64,000 nt of DNA from Desulfonatronovibrio magnus (GTDB lineage Bacteria; Desulfobacterota; Desulfovibrionia; Desulfovibrionales; Desulfonatronovibrionaceae). The notes under the pieces are model-generated. The model was given only the letters and a program-made list of their open reading frames with translations, did no database searches and was not told the origin of the DNA. The position numbers and the translations under genes are program-made. Positions 9,876 to 64,000 of this stretch are shown in pieces (position 1 is the first letter of the stretch; each line of letters starts with the position of its first letter). The stretch lies in NCBI RefSeq assembly GCF_000934755.1, contig NZ_KN882175.1:619261-683260 (forward strand). Direction: 5' to 3'.

Positions 9876-10595
9876 GTGACACTTGTTGATCCAGGCACAC
9901 AGATTATTTCCCAGGGTATGGAAGCTGACAGGATATATGTTATTCTTTCCGGTCGTGTGGATATCCTTTGCCACGGTAAAAAAGTTATTGAACTTGGACC
10001 TGAATCTGTTCTCGGTGCTGAGCCGGTTTTTTTTCCGGAAACCAGCTACCTCTACTCAGCAATAGTCAGCAGGCAAACAAGAATATCAGAATACCATTAT
10101 TCTGATATTCTGGACATGATCAGCACCAGTCCGGATCTTTTCCATCAGATTTTCAGCTCCATGAGCAAACAGCTTGGTAAATTGTGGAATGAGATTGGTG
10201 AGAACGTTGAGCATGAACAGAATGACATGCATTTTGTAGGGGAAATCAGGTCATACACTGAAAACCAATGGGTAATTCAGGAGGGTCAGGAGGATACGGA
10301 TATATTTCGCATTGTTTCTTCAGATAAAGGTCTTGAAGTGTCGCGCAGTGGTCACAAACTCGCTACATTGAATACTCCGGGGGAATTTTTTGGAGAAATG
10401 GCCATTATTCTCGGTGAAAAAAGGACAGCCAGTGTCAGATCTCTTGGCAACTCTATTCTGGAGGTATATCCAGGCCACCAGTTACAGAATATACTTGCAG
10501 ACTATCCAGGCATAGCCATGAGAATCATAAAAGCCATGTCACAGCGCCTGGCTCATACCACTAAAGCTCTCGCTGACTCCACTGCAGGGCAGTGA
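9876..10595 (+). CDS. Tandem cyclic-nucleotide-binding-domain protein
   Basis: The 239-residue soluble protein has two cNMP-binding-like domains, at about residues 5-95 (GMEADRIYVILSGRVDIL) and 140-225 (GEFFGEMAIILGEKRTASVRS). The second keeps the phosphate-binding-cassette pattern GEMAIILGEKRTAS. There is no helix-turn-helix, kinase or channel domain, so it is not a normal CRP/FNR regulator. The start is GTG with AAAGAGA upstream. It probably shares a transcript with the secreted protein before it. The ligand is unknown. Confidence 0.82.
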   Translation: MTLVDPGTQIISQGMEADRIYVILSGRVDILCHGKKVIELGPESVLGAEPVFFPETSYLYSAIVSRQTRISEYHYSDILDMISTSPDLFHQIFSSMSKQLGKLWNEIGENVEHEQNDMHFVGEIRSYTENQWVIQEGQEDTDIFRIVSSDKGLEVSRSGHKLATLNTPGEFFGEMAIILGEKRTASVRSLGNSILEVYPGHQLQNILADYPGIAMRIIKAMSQRLAHTTKALADSTAGQ

Positions 10596-11735: not shown

Positions 11736-12578
11736 TCAGGCTTTCCTGTAAACAGTAGGTGCTGCCTGCTCAAGACCAAGCTCCATACCGCTAAGGCTCT
11801 CTGAATGCCCAATGAATATGTATCCTTTTGGTGCTAAATGAGAAACAAAGTTACGCAATAGTTTTTCCTGCACTGCTCTGTCAAAATAAATCATCACATT
11901 GCGGCAGAAAATTATATCCATAGGCTCTCTGAAGCCAAACTCTTCCATAAAGTTAAGACGTCTGAACCTGACCCTGTTTCTAAGACTTGGTACAACCCGA
12001 ACCAACCCACGTTTCCTGTCCTTGCTGCGCAATAGATATTTACGCCTTAGCAGTGGAGGAATGTTTTCCGCCTTGTCCTGAGAATATATGGCTCTTTCAG
12101 CCTTTTCCAGAACCTCATTATTGATGTCTGTAGCCACAATCGTGAATGAAAAGCCCTGGTGTTGTTCAGCAAACTCTGACAACACCATGGCGAGAGTATA
12201 GGGCTCCTCACCCGAAGAACAACCCGCACTCCAGACAACTAAATCCTTTTGGCCATTAAACCTTTGATACCACTTTGGCAGTACCTGGTTATACAGATAA
12301 TCAAAATGCTTGGGCTCTCGGAAAAAGTGAGTTGTATTGGTAGTAACCGCATCCATCAGATGAGGCATCTCAATTTCTAAGCCCTTTAAGCTGAACAGGT
12401 ACTCACAATAATCTTTGTAATCATTCATGCTAAGAGATCGTAAACGTCTTTGCAGCCGTGACTCCAACATAGTTCTTTTGGTGGGAGGTACTTTAATTCC
12501 GCACTCAGAACTGATAAACTGACTGAGTTTTTTAAAATCTCGATCAGACAGCTTCTTATTCGTAAGATTGGTTGCCAT
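11736..12578 (-). CDS. cheR: Chemoreceptor methyltransferase CheR
   Basis: CheR transfers methyl groups from S-adenosylmethionine to glutamates of chemoreceptors. The 280-residue product has the all-helical N-terminal domain (residues 1-90) and the SAM-binding domain with VVWSAGCSSGEEPYTLAM. Downstream are the conserved IFCRNVMIYFD and GYIFIGHSESL motifs. It is the last gene of the cluster. The 382-bp gap to cheW contains a MITE-like repeat, so it may need its own promoter. Confidence 0.96.
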   Translation of the reverse strand: MATNLTNKKLSDRDFKKLSQFISSECGIKVPPTKRTMLESRLQRRLRSLSMNDYKDYCEYLFSLKGLEIEMPHLMDAVTTNTTHFFREPKHFDYLYNQVLPKWYQRFNGQKDLVVWSAGCSSGEEPYTLAMVLSEFAEQHQGFSFTIVATDINNEVLEKAERAIYSQDKAENIPPLLRRKYLLRSKDRKRGLVRVVPSLRNRVRFRRLNFMEEFGFREPMDIIFCRNVMIYFDRAVQEKLLRNFVSHLAPKGYIFIGHSESLSGMELGLEQAAPTVYRKA

Positions 12579-12960
12579 TTATTAAGTTTGATCCTCTTAT
12601 GATCAACAGAGTATAAATATGATGAACAGTAAGCAATGCAGCCAAACTTATATGTTGGTACCAGGAAACTGGCTTTTCTGCCTTTAATATTATTATGCTG
12701 CTTAAAACTTTCCAACGGCAAAAATGCCTGTCCCAATATTTTAAAATATTTCGTAACAGTTTAGCCATTTGCATGTGGCACGGCTTCCTGCCCGGAGGCA
12801 TACAGCCCGGAGGGGGACTGGCTCTCCCAGCCCTTGTTTTATTAGAAAAGAAGGGGACAGTCCCAAAACTCTAAGCTGTTACATACCTGCCTGCACTTAA
12901 AGTTAACGTGAGTTCTCACAAAAAATTATTACGCGGACGTACGGTAAACCAGACTTCTTA
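12579..12960. other. 382-bp cheR-cheW gap
   Basis: No gene is seen. The gap contains the MITE-like element at 12753-12882, which includes one GGGACAGTCCC palindrome (12854-12864) and a CCGGAGG-rich insert shared with 22420-22457 and 39351-39386. Confidence 0.8.
12753..12882. repeat. MITE-like element with terminal inverted repeats
   Basis: The left end GTAACAGTTTAG and the right end CTAAGCTGTTAC form imperfect terminal inverted repeats around about 130 bp of non-coding DNA. The ends match those of the element at 33023-33163. No clear target duplication is visible. Confidence 0.6.
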
Positions 12961-13464
12961 CTATTCCAGCCTGCTATCTCCTGCTTCCTTGACCATGCCA
13001 ATTTCTTCTGATGAAAAAACCTTATTAACATCAATAATTATTACAAATTCATCATTTTGTTTGGCCATGCCATATATAAATTCTGTTTTGACCTTGGCTC
13101 CCATCCTGGGTGCCGGTTCAATGTCTTCCGGTTTGATTTCAAAAACTTCCTGCACAGAATCAGATAAAGCTCCCATAATAGTTGATTCACCATCCATGAG
13201 CACCTCAACAATAATAATGCAGGTGTGTACGGTTCGTTCTGTCTTTTCCAGACCTAACTTGAGTCGTAAATCAGCAACAGGTACAGCTTTGCCTCGCAGA
13301 TTGATGATCCCAAGAAGGAAGTCCGGAGTTCTTGGCACCTTTGTTACAGGTACATAATCCAAAACCTCCCAGACTTGCGAAATATCAATGGCATAAAGCT
13401 CATCAGCCAAAGTAAAGGTCAGGTATTGATTGGCCGCAATAGCAGTTTTATCTTTTTCAGCCAT
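12961..13464 (-). CDS. cheW: Chemotaxis coupling protein CheW
   Basis: CheW links chemoreceptors to the CheA kinase. The 167-residue protein is a single CheW domain with the usual pattern LTFTLADELYAIDISQVWEVLDY (residues 15-37), FLLGIINLRGKAVPVADLRLKLG and VEVFEI-like segments. It lies between cheR and a chemoreceptor gene on the same strand. The second CheW-like domain needed for a full array is at the C-terminus of CheA. Confidence 0.95.
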   Translation of the reverse strand: MAEKDKTAIAANQYLTFTLADELYAIDISQVWEVLDYVPVTKVPRTPDFLLGIINLRGKAVPVADLRLKLGLEKTERTVHTCIIIVEVLMDGESTIMGALSDSVQEVFEIKPEDIEPAPRMGAKVKTEFIYGMAKQNDEFVIIIDVNKVFSSEEIGMVKEAGDSRLE

Positions 13465-13547
13465 ATCTACTCCTTATTATGGTAGGCTTGCATAAAGCAA
13501 AACTTCAGGCTTTCAGGTTCAGAAAAAATCATTTTTTATGTAATTAA

Positions 13548-15608
13548 CTAAAACTTTTCAAAGTCTTTATCCAGGTCATCATCTCCCATATCTAAAGCAA
13601 AGCGACCCTCTCTGCTTTTATTTCCGCTGTTCAGAGATTGCTTGTTGTGAGGCTGTGGATTATTTTTAGTCTGTTTTTTTAAGGCAACTTTTGGCCTTGA
13701 TCTTCTGCCTGAAAAAGCCTGCTCATCACCCACCTTGAAAAAGGCCATGGTGGCCTGCAATTGTTCAGCCTGGCTGGAGAGTTCTTCAGCAGTAGATGAC
13801 ATCTGTTCTGCTGCAGAAGCGTTTTGCTGAATGACCTGGTCAAGTTGCTGAACTGCCTGGTTGATCTGTTCCACACCTGAATTCTGCTCCCTGCTTGCAG
13901 CAGAAATTTCCTGTATAAGTTCAGCAGTTTTCTGTATATCAGGAACTATCTTTTTCAGCATTTCTCCTGCTTTTTCAGCTACTTCTACGCTGGATCCTGA
14001 CAGATCGATAATTTCAGCCGCTGCAGTCTGACTTCTTTCCGCAAGCTTTCTGACTTCCGAAGCTACAACCGCAAAACCTTTACCGGCTTCGCCTGCTCTT
14101 GCCGCTTCAATAGCAGCATTTAGCGCAAGCAAATTTGTCTGGCGGGCAATTTCTTCGATAATTGAAATCTTATCTGCAATCTGCTTCATGGCATCCACTG
14201 CCTGAAAAACAACCTTACCGCCTTCTTCAGCATCTCTTGCTGCCTGGATTGCAATTTTCTCAGTTTGTGCGGCATTGTCTGTATTTTGCTTAATATTGGC
14301 TGCCATCTCTTCCATGCTTGAGGAAACCTCTTCCACTGAAGCAGCCTGCTCAGTCGCTCCTTGAGACATCTCCTCTGATGATGCTGATAATTCCTGGCTT
14401 CCAGAGGCAACATTTTCCGAGGCAGTCTTAACTTCCTGCACCACCTCGCTCAACTTGTTGCGCATGGCCTGCATTGCGCCAGCCAAAATACCTATCTCAT
14501 CCTTTTGTTCCACATCAAGATGTGCAGTCATGTCACCTGCAGCCATTTTTTGTGAAAATGTCACACCCTTGGCTACAGGATTTGTAATTGCCCTGGTTAA
14601 CAAAATGCCGAGTATTATAGCCAGAAAAACTCCTATGGCCATACCGGCTATGGCAATGGTTACTGCCTGGGCCGCGTCTAAGTTTGCCTGGGCAACTCCT
14701 TCTTCAGCCACCTGCTCGTTAATATGTATGACTCTTTCCAGGACATCCATGGTGGCCCGCTGTGCTTCCACTCCATCTACCATGGCCAGTATGTTCATTT
14801 CACCATAAAGTGCATCTGCCTCTTCAGCCAGATTAATCAACCGATAGAAATAGTCAAAGGTAGCGTCAGCAGCCAGCACCATAACGCTGATAAATTCATC
14901 TACAGCCAGCTGTTCATTATTCTGGTCAACATGGCTACGCACTTCAGCCACACTTCGGTGAAAGGCATTATGTCCTGGAACAATATCCCGCAGGATACTG
15001 TTAATCTGTTGATTGTCTATACTAAAATCAGACAGCCACCGCCCGAAATTACAGGCAGTCGGATCATCCTGTCCCTGAAAAGTCTGGCCGGTCAGAATCA
15101 TCCTGCCGACATTATCCATCAAGGCATAGTGATCACCTCTAAACTGCTGCAACTGCCCTATAAACTCCTCTGTATTGAGGATTCCAATGGATTCAAGCTG
15201 CCTGGACATCTGCAGGAACTCATTGTTCACTCTGCCCCATTCCTGCAGTCTCGGCATAAAATCCCTCCAGATAGCAGCTTCTTCCTGGGTCTGGGGAAGT
15301 GGTTCAAACCGTTCAAGCGCGCGCTGATATCTGTCTCTTGCTGAATCTATATTGGCATATTGTTCCCTTCTGAGTTCCATGCTCAAATCAGGATTGAGCA
15401 GCGTACGAATTGAAACCATGATATTTTCAAATTCAGCTTCAATCTGTCTAAGATAATCTATACTGGGCAACCTGACTTCACCAATTTCTTCGATATGACC
15501 GGACAGATTGTTTGCACCCCGCCAGCCAAAAAAGCCTACAATGAGAACAATAACTGCCACCACAATAAATCCACCAAGCAATTTGACTCCAAGCTTTATG
15601 TTCTTCAT
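13548..15608 (-). CDS. Methyl-accepting chemotaxis protein with periplasmic CZB-type domain
   Basis: A 686-residue transmembrane chemoreceptor. TM1 spans about residues 10-29 and TM2 about 316-338. A HAMP domain follows (339-391), and then the signalling coiled coil, with the highly conserved hairpin tip around [20 protein letters not shown] (491-510). The periplasmic region looks four-helical. It also contains the CZB zinc-ligand pattern: H160, C186 in CNFGRWL, then H213 and H217 in PGHNAFH. Zinc binding is inferred. There is no C-terminal NWxxF tether for CheR. The tail (625-686) is charged and linker-like. Confidence 0.93.
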
Positions 15609-15685
15609 CTGTAACCTCCTTGGGCTTTTGGCACTAATTCAGCCGTTACTCGATATTAATAAGCGTCATGACTGAAAGTATGTAA

Positions 15686-16750
15686 TTACTTTCTGATGAC
15701 AGCCTTAATCAACTCCCGGGGTATAGCCTGCAATGGTGCTACTTTGTCCACACCACCAAGCTTTATTGCCTCATGCGGCATTCCGAATACTACACTTGTC
15801 TCCTCGTCCTGAGCTATACAAAAGGCACGGGCATCGTGCATTTCTTTCATACCTTTGGCTCCGTCATCGCCCATGCCTGTCATTATGATGCCAATGGCGT
15901 TTGCTCCTGCATATCGCGCTGCAGAACGAAAAAGTACATCCACTGAAGGTCTGTGTCTGGAAACCAGCGGACCATCTTTAATCTGAACAAAATATCTTGC
16001 ACCGCTGCGTTTGAGCATCATATGCCTGTTGCCCGGGGCAATCAATGCATGCCCCCTTAACATTGTTGCACCATCTTTCGCTTCCTGGACAGAAATCCTG
16101 CAAATACTGTTGAGACGGGCAGCAAAGGCTGCAGTAAAATTCTCAGGCATATGCTGGACTACGGCAATGGCAGGACAGTCTAAGGGCATGGCTTCCAGAA
16201 AAATGCGAAGTGCTTCTGTACCTCCTGTTGAGGCACCTACAACAACAACTTTTTCTGTAGTTTCGGCCATTGCCCTGGTGCTTGGCGGAGGCAGAACAGC
16301 GTCTGCACTCATTTTTTTCTTAACCTGAACCATTTTGGACAGAGGCTTGAGCTTGGCCTGAGCCGCAGCTTTTACCGCATCGCATATTCTAACCTTGGAC
16401 TCTTCAAGAAATTGTCTTGTACCAACTTTTGGCTTTTGAATGATTTCCACAGCACCGTATTCCAGAGCCTTCATTGTAGTTTCTGCACCCTGGGTGGTTA
16501 ATGTGGAACAGATAACCACAGGAATAGGATGTTGCGTCATGATTTTTCGCAAAAATGTAATACCGTCCATACGGGGCATTTCTACATCTAAGGTCAGAAC
16601 ATCAGGAATCTGCTCTTCCATTTTTTTTACTGCTGCAAAAGGATCAACTGCAGCGCCGATGACCTTGATGCCCGGGTCACTGGACAATATCTCAGTCATG
16701 GTCTGCCTGACCAAAGCTGAATCATCAACAATCAGTACTTTTATTGCCAT
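15686..16750 (-). CDS. cheB: Receptor methylesterase CheB
   Basis: CheB removes methyl groups from chemoreceptors when phosphorylated by CheA. The 354-residue product has a receiver domain with phosphoacceptor D55 ([12 protein letters not shown]). After a linker comes the esterase domain with catalytic S174 (GASTGGTEA), H200 (VVQHMPENF) and D296 ([10 protein letters not shown]). It lies between the chemoreceptor and cheA genes. With CheR in the same cluster it gives a complete adaptation pair. Confidence 0.97.
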
Positions 16751-16947
16751 ATTGATATCTCTCTAAGTAATGCTACAGCACAACCTCATTATTGACCTGC
16801 CTGAACTGGCAGTTCTGTATCCTGGGTTTGCAGGCATTTGACAGCTGAAAAAATGCATGCCCCAATTTGAAACATCCTGGAAAAATTGATAAGTTTTGCT
16901 ATAGTGATAATATTTTTTCAAGCTCTCATAGACTGCATGAAAGCTCG

Positions 16948-19080
16948 CTATTGTTCAGCCACAACATCCTCAACCAGGGTCGGCACATCAAGGATTAAAG
17001 CCATGCTCCCGTCTCCACGCACTGTGGCCCCGGATAAGCCCCTTACGTTCTGATAAACATGACCAAGACTCTTGATTACTGTCTGATGCTGCCCGACAAC
17101 CTTGTCAACAACAAGTCCCACCCGCTGATTTTTAACATTGACAATGACAATCTGCTCAATATTGAGTTCATGGCTGGTAATATTGAACCAGTCACCAAGT
17201 CTGACATAAGGTACTATCTCACCGCGCAGATTAATAACACTTTTAGATTCTTTGGCCTGACCGTCAGATTTCAGCTCTACACACTCCTCAACAACAGAAA
17301 GGGGTATGACCAGATTGTCATCGCCTACTTTAATCTGCAGACCGTCAATAATGGCCAGAGTTAGAGGAAGTTTAATGGAAACCCTGGTGCCTTTATCCTT
17401 TTCACTTTCCAGAAAAATGTGCCCCCGCAGGGCTTCAATGCCTCTTTTTACGACATCCATACCTACACCGCGGCCTGAAACCCCGGTCACCTTAGATGCA
17501 GTGGAAAAACCCGGCTCAAAAATCAATTGCTGCACTTCTCTGTCACTTATATCAGAATCAGCAGCAATCAGGCCCCTTTCTACTGCCTTTTGTCTTATGA
17601 CCTGGGAATCCAGACCTTTGCCGTCGTCTGCTATTTCAATGACCACTTCTCCCCCGGCATGAGCTGCAGAAAGAGTTATGGTCCCCTGCTTGTTTTTGCC
17701 GGCTGCCTTTCTTATGTCAGGATCTTCAATTCCATGATCGATACTGTTACGCAGTAAATGAACAAGAGGATCGTTGAGGCGTTCTATCACAGTTTTATCA
17801 AGTTCAGTATCAGCTCCCTTGGTAACAAGCCTGATTTCCTTATTTAGATCTTTGGAAAGATCCCTGACCAGTCTGGTGAACTTGCTGAAGGTTGCACCTA
17901 TGGGCATCATCCTGATACCAAGGGTGCTGTCACGCAAAGAATCGGAAAGTCTTTCCATTTCTTCTGCAAGAGACTGGAGACTGGAAGAGTGAATCTCTGT
18001 AACGATTTGATTAAGCCGGGCCTGAGCTATGACCAGCTCACCCACGAGATCCACAAGATTATCCAGCTTGCCGGAATCAACCCTGATGCTGGCAACTTCA
18101 GCAGTTGCCTTTTTACGTGACTCAGCCTTTTGGACTATCTCCTGTTCAGCCAGTGCGGAAGCTACTTCCTGGGCTGACACTTTACCACTTTGCACAAGCA
18201 TGCTGCCGATTTTTTTCTGCAGCCTTAAAACTTCATCAACATCATCAGGCGTCAAGGCGCCCCTTCGTATAAGAATCTCTCCAAGCTTGTCATGTGCCTC
18301 TTCTGTATCAATTTCACCGGACCGGGTCAGTTTTTCAACTATCAATTCGCAATCATCTTCTACAAACATGAAGATATCCCTGATGGCATTCTCATCCTCG
18401 GTTGTAGTCAGAATAATATCCCACCAAGTATAGCACATCTCCGGATTCATTTCTGAAATGTCAGGAATGGCATCTGTCCTGGCAATTATCCTGCAAAGAG
18501 GGCTGTCCTTGGGAACATCCGACTTAAGCTCACAAATCCCCATGTCGAACAATTCGTCCAGCAGGGCCAAAGGCTTGGCACCTGTAAAAAAAATATTTTT
18601 ATCCGGCTTGAACTTGACTCGGTAGGTATTAAGTTCACCGGCTTGATTGTCATCATCAGAGTCCTCATCTAAAGCATTATATTCTGAATCTTGGGCAGTT
18701 GTATTTGACCCTACATTTTTCTTAAGATTTTCAATGATCTCCTTTGTTCTGGCCGGCCTGTCCTGTCCACGATCATAAAGCATATCACTTATAAGATCTC
18801 TGGATTTGAAAAGAATATCAACAAGTTCCATATTAAGAGCTACTACGCCTTCCCTGACCTGATCCATAACCGTTTCAACTTCGTGGGTAAAATCAGCGAT
18901 CTCATCAAAGCCAAACATTGAACCTGATCCCTTAATGGTATGCATGGCTCTGAAAATTCGGTTGATCAAGTCTTGATCGTCAGGGGTTTGCTCAAGATCA
19001 AGCAGCCCCTTCTCAAGTTCGTCCAGAAGTTCCGCAGCTTCTACCAGATAAGCCTGGCGGCCTTGATCAGCAATGGACAT
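16948..19080 (-). CDS. cheA: Chemotaxis histidine kinase CheA with MshEN-like insert
   Basis: A 710-residue CheA. The HPt domain has phosphorylated H47 (AMHTIKGSG). Residues about 150-250 look like a CheY/CheB-binding region. Next are two 24-residue repeats at 265-288 and 290-313 that fit the [RK]-L/I-G-x2-hydrophobic2-x2-G pattern of the c-di-GMP-binding MshEN domain. The dimerisation helices follow (332-400), then the ATPase domain with N445 (HLLRNSIDHG), DDGKGL (485-490) and GRGVGMD (536-542). A CheW-like domain ends the protein. AGGAGG precedes the ATG. Apart from the insert this is a normal class I CheA. Confidence 0.95.
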   Translation of the reverse strand: MSIADQGRQAYLVEAAELLDELEKGLLDLEQTPDDQDLINRIFRAMHTIKGSGSMFGFDEIADFTHEVETVMDQVREGVVALNMELVDILFKSRDLISDMLYDRGQDRPARTKEIIENLKKNVGSNTTAQDSEYNALDEDSDDDNQAGELNTYRVKFKPDKNIFFTGAKPLALLDELFDMGICELKSDVPKDSPLCRIIARTDAIPDISEMNPEMCYTWWDIILTTTEDENAIRDIFMFVEDDCELIVEKLTRSGEIDTEEAHDKLGEILIRRGALTPDDVDEVLRLQKKIGSMLVQSGKVSAQEVASALAEQEIVQKAESRKKATAEVASIRVDSGKLDNLVDLVGELVIAQARLNQIVTEIHSSSLQSLAEEMERLSDSLRDSTLGIRMMPIGATFSKFTRLVRDLSKDLNKEIRLVTKGADTELDKTVIERLNDPLVHLLRNSIDHGIEDPDIRKAAGKNKQGTITLSAAHAGGEVVIEIADDGKGLDSQVIRQKAVERGLIAADSDISDREVQQLIFEPGFSTASKVTGVSGRGVGMDVVKRGIEALRGHIFLESEKDKGTRVSIKLPLTLAIIDGLQIKVGDDNLVIPLSVVEECVELKSDGQAKESKSVINLRGEIVPYVRLGDWFNITSHELNIEQIVIVNVKNQRVGLVVDKVVGQHQTVIKSLGHVYQNVRGLSGATVRGDGSMALILDVPTLVEDVVAEQ

Positions 19081-19153
19081 TCAAGCCTCCTGATGGAATG
19101 AAAAAAAAACAAGATTACATTGAACTTTTGTGCAAAAAAACATCTATATAGAC

Positions 19154-19336
19154 TTACCGCTTTAATCCTGTAACAAAAAAAAGAAAATTACTTGACACCG
19201 ACAAGAGCAGTAATATCCATAACCCTAAACCTTCAGCCTTTACCGCTAAAATTCCAGTTCTCCCCCAAATTAAATGTTCATGTATAAAATGCGTTATGAG
19301 CACAGCCAGCATTAGCACGGCAATAAGAGCAAACAA
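19154..19336 (-). CDS. Possible small two-helix membrane protein
   Basis: An open frame between cheA and cheY would encode 60 residues with two strongly hydrophobic stretches (FALIAVLMLAVLI and LGLWILLLLSVSSNFLFF) and a basic C-terminus. The first usable start is TTG with no clear ribosome site. I know no family for it. It is listed because the 323-bp gap has no other content and a two-TM small protein there would be plausible, but it may be chance. Confidence 0.22.
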   Translation of the reverse strand: MFALIAVLMLAVLITHFIHEHLIWGRTGILAVKAEGLGLWILLLLSVSSNFLFFVTGLKR

Positions 19337-19403
19337 TAACGTAAATAGACAATGCAGGACCGCCGGATTTGGGCTTGATTCACTACTTTATGATACCAGA
19401 CTC

Positions 19404-19766
19404 TCAGCCCAGTACCTTTTTAACAACAGCAAGCAATTGTTCCGGCTTAAAAGGCTTGACAATCCATCCTGTAGCACCGGCCTGCTTGCCCTCCTGCTTC
19501 TTTTCAGCCTGGGATTCTGTAGTCAGCATAATGATAGGAATAAACTTGAACTGGCTCTGTCCCCGTGCCTGACGTATCAGTTCCAACCCATCCATATTGG
19601 GCATATTCAAATCTGTAATTATCATATCTACAGGAGAAGACAACTTGCCAAGAGCGTCCTGCCCGTCCACAGCCTCAACTACATCATAGCCAGCGTCTTT
19701 AAGAGTAAAGGCAACCATCTGTCGCACACTTGCAGAGTCGTCTACTGTCATAATTTTTTTAGCCAT
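19404..19766 (-). CDS. cheY: Single-domain response regulator CheY
   Basis: A 120-residue stand-alone receiver domain, with acidic pocket D9 and D10, phosphoacceptor D52 (ITDLNMPNMDGLE), Thr in MLTTES and Lys in WIVKPF. It would carry the CheA signal to the flagellar motor. I chose the ATG at 19766 because GGAAAGGAG lies a proper distance upstream; it overlaps the STAS gene's 3' end by 8 nt. An ATG two codons earlier sits directly on the ribosome site. Confidence 0.93.
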   Translation of the reverse strand: MAKKIMTVDDSASVRQMVAFTLKDAGYDVVEAVDGQDALGKLSSPVDMIITDLNMPNMDGLELIRQARGQSQFKFIPIIMLTTESQAEKKQEGKQAGATGWIVKPFKPEQLLAVVKKVLG

Positions 19767-20088
19767 CAACATCTCCTTTCCAGAAATATCCCCCAGTATA
19801 CTCCTCAGTAAAACCCATTTTTTCAGCTTTATTCTGAATTCTATCTGGAACTGGGTCAAAAACAAGCTTTTTACCTTCTATTACCGCCTCTTTATATAAG
19901 GCGCATACAATCTGCAAAAAAGAAAGATCAACCCCATCCACTTGTGCCATATCCACCCTTATGACCTCGTGTACACTTATGGTATCAACAATAACATTGT
20001 GAAGCTCTTTGGCACACTCGATATTCAGATTGCCCTGCAATATCATTACAGCACCTTGATCATCTGTTTTAATTTCTACTTCAGCCAT
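19759..20088 (-). CDS. STAS domain protein
   Basis: The 109-residue protein is a single STAS domain, as in anti-sigma-factor antagonists. The family loop VDGVDLSFLQIV carries a serine (S56) where phosphorylatable serines are found. AAGGAG precedes the ATG. It overlaps cheY by 8 nt, so the two are translated together. In chemotaxis clusters such proteins are thought to have a regulatory or scaffolding role; its partner is not visible in the window. Confidence 0.85.
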   Translation of the reverse strand: MAEVEIKTDDQGAVMILQGNLNIECAKELHNVIVDTISVHEVIRVDMAQVDGVDLSFLQIVCALYKEAVIEGKKLVFDPVPDRIQNKAEKMGFTEEYTGGYFWKGDVDG

Positions 20089-20333: not shown

Positions 20334-22175
20334 TTAAAAAAGCTCTATATTATCCCCAAAATCATCACCATCCTGAGTCTCCTCATTTGCGCCCTGCTCG
20401 TCATCATCCCAGAATATTTCATCCTGATCCTGGGTTTCTCCTTCAAGCTGCACTTTATGCACTAAGCGCTGTGACTCCATAGTATATCTGTCAAACATCC
20501 TTTGCAGGTTGGCCGGCCATTGAGTATCTTCAAAATCAGAGTGAAACTCTGACTCTGTCTGCTGAACAACCTGTTGTAAAAAACTTTTGGCTTCACTGAT
20601 GCCGGTGCTTACTTCGTGATGAAAATCCAGATTTTCAGACAGAAAAGAAATGGTACTGGACAGGTTTGAACCTTCTGAGATAATCAACCCGAGTTTTTGT
20701 TCAATTTCAGCGTTAAGTTCACTCATTTCATTAAGGCTTCGATCTATTTTTTTGCTTAAATCATCAAAACCGCTAAAGTCTACTGCCTGTGCAGTGAGCT
20801 TCTGCAGCTCCTCTGCATCACTGGATATGGAGTTCAAGGTAGCAGTAACCGCTCCTGTTTTTTCCCTTGCTCTGCCTGACAACTGCTGAATGGCAACGGC
20901 AACAACCCCAAGGGCCATGCCTTCAGAACCTGTATGAGCGGCCCTTACACTGGCATTAAGGGCAATGAGCTCAATCTCTGATCCCACTTCTTCAATATCA
21001 TTCACAAAATCCGACATCTGGGATACACTGCCGCCTACAGTTTCCATGACAGTGCTTATTTCGTGGCTTTTACCGGTAAAATCATGAATGCTGAGTTTGA
21101 CATGGGCTATTTTTTCTCCAATATTTACCAACAGATTGCCCTGTTCATCGTCCCCTAAACCTAAGGACTGCTTCAGTCCTTCTGCCATGCTGGATACACT
21201 TGAAGCAATGGAGTCAAGACCTTTCTTAAGGTTCTCAACAGCCTCATAAAAGGAAATCCCCGCCTGATCCATCTGCTGAATCTGAAGTGAACAGACTTTA
21301 TTTATCCATCCAGCAAGCTGGGTAGAAGTATAACTCTTAGTCTCCGAGCCGTTTCCATTATTTTTAATAAGATTGACGACTTCTTCCAGGGTTTCCTGCA
21401 CATGTTCCACAATCTGTCTGGTGATATCATGAAACTGCATCGAGGAAACCATTTCCCGAACATAGGAAGTGATCTCAGAAGCTTTCTGAGCCAGGTCCTC
21501 TGAAGCTGCTTTGGAGCTTTGCCTGATTGTCTCCAGATCATTGAGGTTAGAATTGATATCCTCCAAAACTTTCTCTACACCGGATTTCTGATCCTGCACC
21601 AGCATCTCAACTCTAATTTTAGCTGATTGTACCAGGTCATACAAAGTTGAAGATTCATCTACAATCCTTTGCCAGTGACCTACCATCTTCCGCCCCAGAG
21701 CTTCAACATCATCAGCCAGAGTCATAAATCCCCTGCCAATATCTCCAAGTCTGGCGCTTTCAATTCTTGTGGTAAAACTCAGCACATTAAGAGTTCTGAC
21801 AATCTTTTTGAAATCATTCATCTCTAAAGACAGCGCCCTGCTCTGGTCAAGCACATTACCTAAAAGCTCAGTGCTTTTCTCCCCCCAGCCAACATCACAA
21901 TACTCGGTAATATCCTTGAGTTCATCCTGCAGGTCCTGCTGGGCATTTAATATTTTTTCACCACTGGTCAGCTTCATCAACTCATCCGCCATATTAGAAA
22001 GCCCGGCTGACTTTGATGATATTTCGTGCAAGTTCTGACCGAGATCAAGAAAATCCTGCTCTTTATCCTTGATTATAGAACCAAGAAATTCAGATACCTC
22101 ACTCACTTGACGGGCCCAGTCTTCAAAAACTGCACTGCCATGCTGATCAGTAATTTCCACTGTCTCCTTTTTCAT
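20334..22175 (-). CDS. Soluble receptor-like coiled coil with two tip-like segments
   Basis: A 613-residue cytoplasmic protein, almost wholly helical. Two segments resemble chemoreceptor hairpin tips: 128-162 (LNVLSFTTRIESARLGDIGR) and 401-437 (IELIALNASVRAAHTGSEGM). Between them is MQFHDITRQIVEHVQ (246-260), a motif of receptor-like proteins that also recalls the phosphatase helix motif of CheZ. There is no membrane segment or HAMP. The C-terminal 35 residues are very acidic. It precedes the STAS, cheY and cheA genes in transcript order. The role is unknown; a structural or CheY-phosphatase role is possible. Confidence 0.75.
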   Translation of the reverse strand: MKKETVEITDQHGSAVFEDWARQVSEVSEFLGSIIKDKEQDFLDLGQNLHEISSKSAGLSNMADELMKLTSGEKILNAQQDLQDELKDITEYCDVGWGEKSTELLGNVLDQSRALSLEMNDFKKIVRTLNVLSFTTRIESARLGDIGRGFMTLADDVEALGRKMVGHWQRIVDESSTLYDLVQSAKIRVEMLVQDQKSGVEKVLEDINSNLNDLETIRQSSKAASEDLAQKASEITSYVREMVSSMQFHDITRQIVEHVQETLEEVVNLIKNNGNGSETKSYTSTQLAGWINKVCSLQIQQMDQAGISFYEAVENLKKGLDSIASSVSSMAEGLKQSLGLGDDEQGNLLVNIGEKIAHVKLSIHDFTGKSHEISTVMETVGGSVSQMSDFVNDIEEVGSEIELIALNASVRAAHTGSEGMALGVVAVAIQQLSGRAREKTGAVTATLNSISSDAEELQKLTAQAVDFSGFDDLSKKIDRSLNEMSELNAEIEQKLGLIISEGSNLSSTISFLSENLDFHHEVSTGISEAKSFLQQVVQQTESEFHSDFEDTQWPANLQRMFDRYTMESQRLVHKVQLEGETQDQDEIFWDDDEQGANEETQDGDDFGDNIELF

Positions 22176-23677: not shown

Positions 23678-25366
23678 ATGCCTCAAGAAAATAACTCAGA
23701 AAAAATTCTCGTGGTCGATGACGACCCCACAGCCAGGCTTTTTGCGTCAAGAATAATTCGCAAAGCAGGTTATGAGGTAGACGATGCAATTGACGGCAAC
23801 ACAGCACTGAAAAAAGTCAGGCTGTTTGAACCTGACCTTATTCTGCTGGATGTAATGCTTCCCGACATCAACGGAATAGAGGTCTGTAAAACCATTAAGG
23901 CTGACCCTCGCCGGCACAGCCCATATATTATCCTTTTTTCTGCCATCCAGACAGGTTCCAGCGACAAGGCTCTGGGACTGGAGTCAGGAGCTGACGGATA
24001 CCTTGTCAAACCTGTCAACACTCGCGAACTTCTGGCCCAGATTCGCGCAATGCTCAGACTAAAAAGGGCAGAAGAAAGACTGTCCAATCAGAAACAATGG
24101 TATGAAACTGTTCTTAACAGTTTGCAGGAAGTAGTCATCTGTATGGATTCAAACCTTAACATCACCTGGGCCAACAAGTCTGCTTTAGACTCCATAGGGC
24201 TTCAACAAATAGATGTAACTGGAAAAAAGTGCAGTGATGTATTTGATTGCACCGTAGACTCCATGCAGAAATGTCCTGTACAGAAATCCATCCGCACAGG
24301 TCAGACTGAAGACGCATTAATCAAAACCCAGGATGGCCGAACCTGGGATACAAGGGCCTATCCGGTTTTTGACCAACATGGCAATTTGAATGAACTGGTT
24401 GAAGTAGCCATGGATGTAAGTCAGAACATAAAAACCCGGAAGGCCTTAGAAAGAAGTGAAGCGCTTTTAAGCGAAGTCACCACCAGAATGCCTGGAGCTA
24501 TCATACAATACAGGGTTCTTGACGGACAGCGGCTGCAGATGGTTTATATCAGTCAGGGCATATTCAATCTGACAGGCATCAGTGCCGAAGCAATCCTGGC
24601 ATCCCCTGAAAAGTTCGTCTCCATCATATTTGCAGAAGACTATGAACGAATCTTCAGCCAGCTTATGGAGAGCTTAAAGAAAAACAAAGCTTTTGGATCC
24701 GACTTCAGAGTTTATGGACCCGGCAATAACATAAAATGGCTGCGCTTAAGTACAGTCCCCTACGAAACAGATGAAGTTACTGCCTGGTATGCCATGCTTA
24801 CAGACATAACCCCTCTGAAAATTGTAGAGCAGGAACTGACACGCAAGGCTCTGCATGACCCTTTGACAGGTCTCCCCAACAGACAACTGTTTAATGATCG
24901 TCTGAGTCAGGCCCTGTCCTATGCAGAACGGTACTCTCAGAAGGTAGGTCTCATTTTTATTGACTTGGATAATTTTAAACCCGTCAATGACCAGTATGGA
25001 CATATGTTTGGGGATGCTGTCCTGCAGACTGTAGCCCACAGACTCAACACATGTGCAAGAAAAACCGACACTGTGGCCAGATTTGGAGGAGATGAGTTCG
25101 TAATTATTCTGTCCAGTCTGGCGTCACGTGAGGATGTTGACAGGATACTAAAAAAAATTACCGAGATATTGCAGACAGACTTTTATGTGGATAATCTCCA
25201 TCTGCAATTAGAGGCAAGCATTGGAGTAAGCATCTACCCGGACGATGCAGAAGAAAAGGAAGATCTGGTAAAAGCAGCTGATAAGGCCATGTACAGCACC
25301 AAACAGGACAAGGGGATAACCATAAGGTATTATGATGATATGTCGGAATCAGACAGCCGGTCCTGA
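23678..25366 (+). CDS. REC-PAS-PAS-GGDEF diguanylate cyclase
   Basis: A 562-residue cytoplasmic signalling protein. The receiver domain has phosphoacceptor D58 (LILLDVMLPDING). PAS domain 1 spans about 136-250 and contains three cysteines (C185, C191, C199). PAS domain 2 spans about 262-380. The GGDEF domain (390-555) keeps an intact active site (RFGGDEF, GGDEF at 470-474) and an inhibitory RxxD site (R461-D464). It should make c-di-GMP with product inhibition. A hairpin follows 80 nt downstream. Its input kinase is not identified; the nearby CheA is one candidate. Confidence 0.92.
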   Translation: MPQENNSEKILVVDDDPTARLFASRIIRKAGYEVDDAIDGNTALKKVRLFEPDLILLDVMLPDINGIEVCKTIKADPRRHSPYIILFSAIQTGSSDKALGLESGADGYLVKPVNTRELLAQIRAMLRLKRAEERLSNQKQWYETVLNSLQEVVICMDSNLNITWANKSALDSIGLQQIDVTGKKCSDVFDCTVDSMQKCPVQKSIRTGQTEDALIKTQDGRTWDTRAYPVFDQHGNLNELVEVAMDVSQNIKTRKALERSEALLSEVTTRMPGAIIQYRVLDGQRLQMVYISQGIFNLTGISAEAILASPEKFVSIIFAEDYERIFSQLMESLKKNKAFGSDFRVYGPGNNIKWLRLSTVPYETDEVTAWYAMLTDITPLKIVEQELTRKALHDPLTGLPNRQLFNDRLSQALSYAERYSQKVGLIFIDLDNFKPVNDQYGHMFGDAVLQTVAHRLNTCARKTDTVARFGGDEFVIILSSLASREDVDRILKKITEILQTDFYVDNLHLQLEASIGVSIYPDDAEEKEDLVKAADKAMYSTKQDKGITIRYYDDMSESDSRS

Positions 25367-54628: not shown

Positions 54629-55038
54629 TGGATATGTTTAACGATCAATTACAAATAGACTACGAGAGCTCATCACCAAGAAAAGCCTATCGGGTTGCAG
54701 TGCCTAATCTCAAGGCAAAAATAAAAAATATGCCTGAAGAGTTCCCGGCCCTTGATATAAGTGCAGGTGGAATGGCCCTTTCTCTTTCTCATATGAAAGA
54801 GCACGGACTTGAAGAAGGTCTTGAAGTTGAACTTTCAATACTTATAAAAAACAGGGTTTTCCTTGACGAGATTAAAGGAAAAATTGTCAAGATAGATGAT
54901 AATATGGCAGCCTGCCAGTTTTCAGAAATAACTCTGCGTCAGGAAGCCAGACTTGACAAACTGATTCTGGAAGTTCAGAAAAAAATGCTTGAGTTTCACA
55001 GAAAAAAGAAAGAAAATGAAACAAAACAGGAAACGTGA
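54628..55038 (+). CDS. PilZ domain protein
   Basis: The 136-residue protein has the c-di-GMP-binding signature: RKAYR (RxxxR, about residues 18-22) and DISAGG (D/NxSxxG, about 43-48). It starts 1 nt inside the motB stop (TAATG), so translation is coupled. A motA-motB-pilZ operon suggests c-di-GMP control of the stator, as for YcgR-like brakes, but here as a minimal PilZ protein with a C-terminal helix. Confidence 0.9.
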   Translation: MDMFNDQLQIDYESSSPRKAYRVAVPNLKAKIKNMPEEFPALDISAGGMALSLSHMKEHGLEEGLEVELSILIKNRVFLDEIKGKIVKIDDNMAACQFSEITLRQEARLDKLILEVQKKMLEFHRKKKENETKQET

Positions 55039-61622: not shown

Positions 61623-64000
61623 TCAACTTTTCGGTTGCTCATCTTTTAAAATTATTTCCGTTCGGTTCCTGCCCCCATTCTTTGCCTTATACAGTGCATC
61701 ATCAGCACGGCGCAGCAAAGCATCCTCATGCTCTCCAGGTACAAACTCGCTGACCCCGAAACTTCCTGTAATTTTTCCAACTTCTCCAAAGTCAGCACAC
61801 ATAATTTTCAAGCGCAGTTTTTCAGCCACGTTCCAGGCACCCTTGTAGTCTGTATGCGGACAGACAACCATAAACTCTTCACCGCCCCATCTGCCAAGAG
61901 AGTCTGTCCTGCGAATATTATCCTGCAAAAGAGCTGACATCCGCTGTAAAACCATGTCTCCTGCCTGATGCCCGTACTCATCATTAACCCCCTTGAAATT
62001 GTCGATATCAAGAAGAATGATTGATAAAGGCTCGCGGGAGCGATTGACCCTGAGGATCTCATTGTCCAGAATCCGTTCAATTTTCATCCGGTTATAGACA
62101 CCAGTCAGGCTGTCAGTAATGGACAGTTTTTCAAGCTCTCTGGTTTTTACAGCCAGATCCCTGTGGGCATCGGCAATCTCCCGATTCAATCTGAAAAGCT
62201 TGCGGTTCCAGTATAGAAAAAAAGCCACAAGAAAAGATGCCACCACCCCAATCTGCCATACCAGGGCATAATCAATGCCCTGCTCATACCTGATGGATAT
62301 CCACTGCCGGACGATACTGTTTATTTCCTGAGAAGAAAGATCATCTATGGCCTTGTCAATAATATTTAACAATTCCGGTTGTTCCGGACTGACCCCTACT
62401 CTGAAAAATTCTTTATATGGAGTCTGACCTGCTATTTTAAGGTCATACAGACCCATCTCATGAATTTTAGAACTAACCAGATGCATGTTACCAATGGCAA
62501 TATCAGCTTCGCGCTTAGAAACCCCTCTCAAAGCCTGCTCCAGTGTTTCAAAGACCACTGTTTCGATTTCAGGATAATTGGTCAGAATAAAATTTTTTAT
62601 GGGATCGCCCTGCACAACTGCCAGTTTGTCCCACACAATGGAACTCAAATCTGGTATGTAGGTATGCTGATCCCTGGAAACCAGAACTGTCAGTGACTCA
62701 AGGTATGGCTTGGAGAGAAGCATGGCACCCTGATCCAGACCAGTATCACGTGCAATTGTCAGGATGTCACACTCGCCCTGTTCATAAAGAGTTATACTTT
62801 CTTCCCATGTGCTGGCAGCCTGGACATAAAAAGGGACATTAATACGTTCTTCCATCATTTGCATAATGCCGGCTACCATTCCATCGTAATGATTGTTATC
62901 CCTTATCTCTTCAAAGGGTTGCCAGGATGGATTGACACACAGCCTGATGGAGTCTTTGGAATCAAGGTAATTCATTTCAGCTGTGCTCAGATTCAGTGAT
63001 GACTTATCTTTAGCTTGTTCTGTTCTAAACCATTGGTCCCTCAGAGAGGATATCTCTTCCCTGGTTATAACATTCATGGTTTTATGCAGTATGCTGTGCA
63101 ACAATTCCTGCTCATGATGTACTCCCACGGAAACCGGTGTTGAGCCTAAGACATCCGTCTCCAGAATGGGAATATTTACCAGATCCATAAGCAGATACCT
63201 GTTGATCAGATAATCAAATACAGGTTTTTCAGACAAGGCTGCGTCTGCCCTGCCCGATGAAACGGCATCAAGACACCTTAAAGGGTTATCCAGAGCCAGA
63301 ATGTTAATTTCAGGGAAATAATACTCCAGAATTTCATGATAGTAAAAATCTTTTGGTACGGCCACTGTTTTACCCTTCAAGTCACTCAATTCATTGATAT
63401 CATCTTCCTCCCCCCTTCTGACCACAATACCTGATAAAAAATTGAAGTATGGTTCTGTAAACAGGATAAAATGTTCTCTTTTATCTGTTCTGACCACATC
63501 TCCCAGGATATCTATCTCTTTAGTCTGCAGCATACTCAAGAATTCGTTCCAGGTTGGTCCGCTAATATATCTGAACTCAATTCCCATCTTTTGAGCAAGC
63601 AGATCCATATAATCTATGACAAAACCTCTCGGCTGACCGTTTTCATTAAAATTGAAAGGTGCCCAATGCTTTAGATTGCTGACGGTAAGAACGGGATTGT
63701 CCAGTAAAAACTGTATCTCCTGTGCGGAAAATTGTGGCCTGCTCTGATCCTCTATGGAAAACCACTTTTCACCCAGCCTGATTTTTTCATTTTCTGGAAT
63801 TGAATCCATGGCCTTTTGCATGATATCCCGCAATGGAGCCATGTCTTTGCGAACTGAAATATAAAGACCCTGGGGGCCAAGCTCTGGTACCCTTGTCTCT
63901 CCAACAACCTTGAGGTCATAAAGAAAATTGGTTGTCATCAAATAGGAAACACTTCCATGGTATCCAATATATGCATCAGCATGGCCGTAACTCACAGCCC
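61623..64000 (-). CDS. Multi-sensor diguanylate cyclase, cut by right edge
   Basis: The visible part is at least 790 residues and stays open to the window edge, so the N-terminus is missing. It has the end of one SBP_bac_3 (amino-acid-binding-like) domain (to about residue 75), then two complete ones (about 85-325 and 345-580). A membrane span (about 590-612) and a short coiled coil follow. The GGDEF domain has GRWGGEEF and an RxxD inhibitory site (RRTD). It should sense periplasmic solutes and make c-di-GMP. The GTG at 63995 is only the first start codon in the visible part. Confidence 0.88.
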   Translation of the reverse strand, partial: AVSYGHADAYIGYHGSVSYLMTTNFLYDLKVVGETRVPELGPQGLYISVRKDMAPLRDIMQKAMDSIPENEKIRLGEKWFSIEDQSRPQFSAQEIQFLLDNPVLTVSNLKHWAPFNFNENGQPRGFVIDYMDLLAQKMGIEFRYISGPTWNEFLSMLQTKEIDILGDVVRTDKREHFILFTEPYFNFLSGIVVRRGEEDDINELSDLKGKTVAVPKDFYYHEILEYYFPEINILALDNPLRCLDAVSSGRADAALSEKPVFDYLINRYLLMDLVNIPILETDVLGSTPVSVGVHHEQELLHSILHKTMNVITREEISSLRDQWFRTEQAKDKSSLNLSTAEMNYLDSKDSIRLCVNPSWQPFEEIRDNNHYDGMVAGIMQMMEERINVPFYVQAASTWEESITLYEQGECDILTIARDTGLDQGAMLLSKPYLESLTVLVSRDQHTYIPDLSSIVWDKLAVVQGDPIKNFILTNYPEIETVVFETLEQALRGVSKREADIAIGNMHLVSSKIHEMGLYDLKIAGQTPYKEFFRVGVSPEQPELLNIIDKAIDDLSSQEINSIVRQWISIRYEQGIDYALVWQIGVVASFLVAFFLYWNRKLFRLNREIADAHRDLAVKTRELEKLSITDSLTGVYNRMKIERILDNEILRVNRSREPLSIILLDIDNFKGVNDEYGHQAGDMVLQRMSALLQDNIRRTDSLGRWGGEEFMVVCPHTDYKGAWNVAEKLRLKIMCADFGEVGKITGSFGVSEFVPGEHEDALLRRADDALYKAKNGGRNRTEIILKDEQPKS

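Follow-up and report, generated by a model that had tools for sequence, protein, structure and literature searches.

A compressed MshEN-type motif pair next to the P3 domain in a class of CheA kinases, a candidate site of c-di-GMP input

Caulobacter CckA is a kinase that binds c-di-GMP directly. Caulobacter ShkA also does so, and MapZ and Cbp1 are chemotaxis proteins that read c-di-GMP via PilZ (PMC7010744, PMC6370697, PMC6454048). All four resemble the arrangement proposed below in that c-di-GMP feeds into chemotaxis or a histidine kinase, but they use other domains and do not place the input within CheA itself. Our survey of the open-access literature returned no paper testing a CheA for direct c-di-GMP binding.

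Another known system is the MshEN domain of MshE from Vibrio cholerae (5HTL). According to the main text of Wang et al. 2016 (PMC5013675), its two motifs are separated by five residues, Gly3 and residue 4 give backbone hydrogen bonds to guanine, Gln24 contacts ribose and phosphate, base stacking across motifs comes from positions 2, 17, and 21, and replacement of Gly3 abolishes binding. The same text names CheA among the proteins with which MshEN is found; no mention of a one-residue spacer or of a tested CheA was found there. The traffic ATPase PilF, which has near-normal spacing and C-terminal subdomains, includes the binders GSPII-B, where tighter binding accompanies a Lys at position 1 (PMC11731258, PMC12002112), and GSPII-C, whose motif 2 begins with Pro (PMC11731258). 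A mutated PilF N-subdomain (residues 9-65) can bind on its own (PMC11731258, PMC12002112). GSPII-A remained a non-binder after restoration of its consensus, showing that a full consensus is insufficient (PMC12002112).

The sequence studied here is a window of 64,000 nt from Desulfonatronovibrio magnus (NZ_KN882175.1, positions 619,261-683,260). Within this window, the open reading frame at 16948-19080 on the minus strand encodes a complete CheA of 710 aa, as judged by translation and Pfam. The protein has the phospho-accepting His47 in an Hpt (P1) domain, a P3 (H-kinase_dim) domain, a HATPase domain with intact N, G1, F, and G2 boxes, and a CheW-like domain; the P2-like region has no Pfam match. 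P3 (PF02895; residues 331-386, 17923..18090, minus strand) lies directly C-terminal of the module described below. The gene belongs to a minus-strand chemotaxis cluster that extends from STAS to CheR (11736..20088) and comprises STAS (19759-20088) and, named from their translations, a CheY-type receiver (19404-19865), CheB (15686-16750), an MCP (13548-15608), CheW (12961-13464), and CheR (11736-12578). An MCP-signalling protein gene beside STAS (20334-22175, minus strand) is part of the same cluster, and a protein with two cyclic-nucleotide-binding stretches is encoded nearby on the plus strand (9876-10595). A P3 profile search found four CheA-type genes in the genome, with the module seen only in the 16948-19080 CheA, whose nearest relatives found are from Desulfonatronovibrio and Desulfonatronum.

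The two GGDEF proteins and the PilZ protein that a preliminary description of this DNA had listed for the window are indeed present. One, a receiver-PAS-GGDEF protein (23678-25366, plus strand), is encoded shortly past the end of the chemotaxis cluster; the other, at 61623-63995 on the minus strand, is a solute-binding GGDEF protein. Both carry an I-site and the ordinary GH..GD signature. The PilZ gene lies at about 54679-54969 on the plus strand. Genome-wide, there are 26 GGDEF matches and 8 PilZ matches, and flagellin genes are present, so the other components of such a signalling system are encoded.

CheA residues 265-288 (KLGEILIRRGALTPDDVDEVLRLQ; 18217..18288, minus strand) and 290-313 (KIGSMLVQSGKVSAQEVASALAEQ; 18142..18213, minus strand) form two tandem 24-residue motifs with Lys at position 1 of each, separated by the single residue Lys289 (18214..18216, minus strand). 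These coordinates, the spacer, and the two lysines are as previously described, and the five residues then given for MshE agree with the main text of PMC5013675. The further claim that both motifs fit the MshEN pattern position for position was too strong: measured against the patterns in that main text, the relaxed motif fits motif 1, but the strict consensus is satisfied by neither. The residues that depart from the strict consensus are K1, A11, and V17 in motif 1 and K1, I2, K11, and V17 in motif 2 (numbered within each motif); the relaxed pattern misses motif 2 because of the Lys at position 11. When the CheA protein was shuffled, two relaxed motifs within 60 residues occurred in 0 of 20,000 cases.

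By profile comparison, the motif pair is homologous to MshEN and not a chance resemblance, in line with the MshEN-type nature first suggested for it. An hhalign comparison of 38 non-redundant CheA modules with 11 MshEN N-subdomains (from ATPases and related proteins within the same bacterial order) gave an E value of 1.4e-15 and a score of 77.2, against a top score of 17.3 for 100 column-shuffled profiles. The sole gap in this alignment is the four residues absent between the CheA motifs, which account for the whole length difference. Run on the relatives, the CheA profile found, after the CheAs, the stretch directly upstream of Pfam MshEN in ATPases, down to an E value of 1.7e-12. NF053729, a curated NCBIfam model of c-di-GMP-binding MshE-related domains, matches CheA 265-313 over all of its positions (1-53 of 53) with 42.4 bits (cut-off, 38), and three genes of the genome exceed the cut-off, one of them this cheA. 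PilF is the top solved-structure match by sequence (E value, 6.8e-10). Weak DUF4388 matches appeared in 18 of 37 relatives (best E value, 0.0014). The shuffles and the hhalign profile score rule out a chance match. A complete MshEN domain is ruled out as well: the C-terminal alpha/beta subdomain (Pfam MshEN, PF05157) has no match in the CheA at E values up to 1, which fits a module with the N-terminal subdomain only.

Both motifs are conserved across CheA orthologues; a loss of motif residues there, which the preliminary description had named as a refutation, is not seen. Among 38 non-redundant relatives, all with spacer 1, Gly3 is invariant in both motifs. In motif 1, Leu6 is also invariant, Gln24 occurs in 33 of 38 sequences, and position 1 is Lys or Arg in 35; in motif 2, Leu21 and Gln24 are invariant, and position 1 is Lys or Arg in 30 and Pro in 6. 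The lysines recall PilF GSPII-B and the prolines GSPII-C. The hydrophobic clusters could be weakened by the Val found at position 17 and by the Ile or Phe that occupies position 2 in motif 2. The module is partly or wholly absent from several CheAs. Two gammaproteobacterial CheAs (L170 and L175) have only remnants of it but retain the final helix ahead of P3, including its Gln; this Gln may therefore be kept for another reason.

The spacer is exactly one residue in 62 of the 65 CheA pairs counted. An MshEN would be expected to have about five; in our sample, the MshEN spacers range from 3 to 5 in ATPases, none of which is shorter than 3, and from 5 to 7 in related proteins. We know of no c-di-GMP binder with a one-residue spacer. 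In a tree built from the CheA kinase part alone, the spacer-1 CheAs of Thermodesulfobacteriota, Nitrospirota, Spirochaetota, and some other groups form one supported clade (97/93), together with a planctomycete CheA with spacer 5 (L056) and a few CheAs that have no module. One spacer-1 sequence (L069) groups with two very long branches, and its placement is unsure. Gammaproteobacterial CheAs, drawn from plasmids and a class-wide search, form a separate clade (100/99) and have the same motif pair with spacers of 9 to 24 residues, or of 5 in two cases. Chemotaxis clusters on plasmids of Aeromonas sp. BC14 (98 kb; L094) and Pseudomonas sp. HR96 (L096) encode CheAs with the motif pair and long spacers; as in the window, genes for STAS and receiver proteins lie alongside.

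AlphaFold, given CheA residues 245-328 as a single chain with 38 sequences, produced a model with good local confidence and a pTM of 0.46. It predicts four helices (residues 266-272, 278-287, 291-297, and 303-327; 18100..18285, minus strand), the last of which leads towards P3. These helices stand at the MshEN places, yet Foldseek returned three poor matches only, none of them an MshEN structure, and a second look with VIA-align yielded nothing, so the MshEN fold, whose absence from a predicted structure the preliminary description had named as a refutation, was not recovered in the isolated chain. The control was the N-subdomain of an MshEN ATPase from the same genome (70 residues, 11 sequences). 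It modeled with a pTM of 0.63, and its first 18 Foldseek matches were N-terminal domains of MshE, PilF, and PilB (best, 5HTL; TM, 0.80), indicating that the two programs can reveal an MshEN fold in a fragment of this size. Since the module model is unlike MshEN and the control is alike, the short linker probably blocks hairpin pairing within one chain. We read the mismatch as evidence against a pocket within one chain and not against descent of the module from MshEN; alternatively, the model could simply be poor, as its pTM of 0.46 allows, or show another arrangement adopted without ligand.

Like MshE, the CheA has two tandem 24-residue motifs, four predicted helices at matching places, the contact positions Gly3, Leu21, and Gln24, and an end-to-end NF053729 match; unlike MshE, it lacks the C-terminal subdomain, carries Lys where MshE has Arg, has a spacer of 1 in place of 5, and gives an isolated-chain model that does not match. 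The kind of domain is already known, since MshEN was linked to CheA in print in 2016 and the motif is recognized by a curated NCBI model. The compressed, conserved spacer and the absent C-terminal subdomain make this a variant of MshEN.

CheA dimerises through P3. The reading we tentatively prefer, with a probability of roughly 0.4, is that the MshEN-derived module is a c-di-GMP input beside P3 whose pocket is shared by two protomers. Residues 255-327 would be a helical module from the N-terminal, ligand-binding half of MshEN, shorn of the C-terminal subdomain and placed between the P2-like region and P3 in a conserved class of CheAs. Each motif would fold into a helical hairpin of the type that holds half of c-di-GMP in MshE, and a linker shortened from five residues to one would probably keep the hairpins of one chain from pairing in the MshE fashion. 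Because CheA is dimeric and helix 4 leads towards P3, we propose pairing between protomers, with motif 1 from one set against motif 2 from its partner. We infer that c-di-GMP sites across the CheA dimer, close to its axis, would result and that their occupancy would set P3 geometry and hence kinase output. We put the odds that the module binds c-di-GMP in some arrangement at about even. It is tempting to draw an analogy with diabodies, in which case the one-residue linker would have turned a one-chain receptor into a two-chain one, with c-di-GMP bridging the protomers ahead of P3 and acting on the kinase; in this specific form, we regard the idea as rather doubtful.

Nearly as likely as the shared pocket is that the MshEN hairpins survive between P2 and P3 only as a helical connector or as a surface for protein docking, binding having been lost when the linker shortened. 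Such a relic is consistent with the four-residue deletion at the half-site joint in nearly the whole clade, with a module model that is not MshEN-like where the control is, with motifs that depart from the strict consensus, and with the partial or complete absence of the module in several CheAs. It is harder to reconcile with Gly3, a guanine backbone donor in MshE according to the main text of PMC5013675, being invariant in both motifs and with the near-invariance of Gln24, as a pure connector has no obvious need for either residue.

If the hairpins instead paired within one chain and bound c-di-GMP as in MshE, helix 2 would be shorter and the AlphaFold fragment would be wrong. The four helices of the module do line up with those of the control, some ATPase MshENs have spacers of only 3 or 4, and the CheA spacers of 5 and of 9 to 24 show that the pair tolerates change. 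We nevertheless consider this arrangement unlikely, given that the ATPase spacers in the sample never fall below 3 and that the CheA model is worse than the control (pTM, 0.46 versus 0.63) despite the deeper alignment (38 versus 11 sequences). A last reading is that the module binds a different cyclic dinucleotide, e.g., 3',3'-cGAMP, in place of c-di-GMP; many members of the CheA clade are relatives of Geobacter, and some of these produce cGAMP. The main text of PMC5013675 describes weak binding of cGAMP by MshEN, with an affinity of MshE for cGAMP that is several hundred-fold lower, and both GGDEF proteins of the window have the ordinary signature with an I-site, which leaves cGAMP as a highly improbable ligand here.

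Should the module of the proposed shared pocket bind, the target of c-di-GMP would be the kinase at the core of chemotaxis and not receptors, methylation, or the motor, and direct kinase control would operate in a class of CheAs found in several phyla. The shared pocket would also mean that MshEN half-sites can assemble between chains. A wider search for c-di-GMP receptors would then be warranted, because Pfam's MshEN model misses these CheAs.

MshEN-type motifs also occur in other arrangements in this and related genomes. A 302-aa protein of the same genome (L196, C117:57368-57679), above the NF053729 cut-off, contains two MshEN-type pairs followed by a further C-terminal domain. In two ATPase open reading frames of relatives (L098 and L100; 781 and 788 aa), a GspE/PilB-type ATPase is preceded by four consecutive MshEN motifs with six residues between them, where adjacent motifs could give up to three overlapping half-site pairs.
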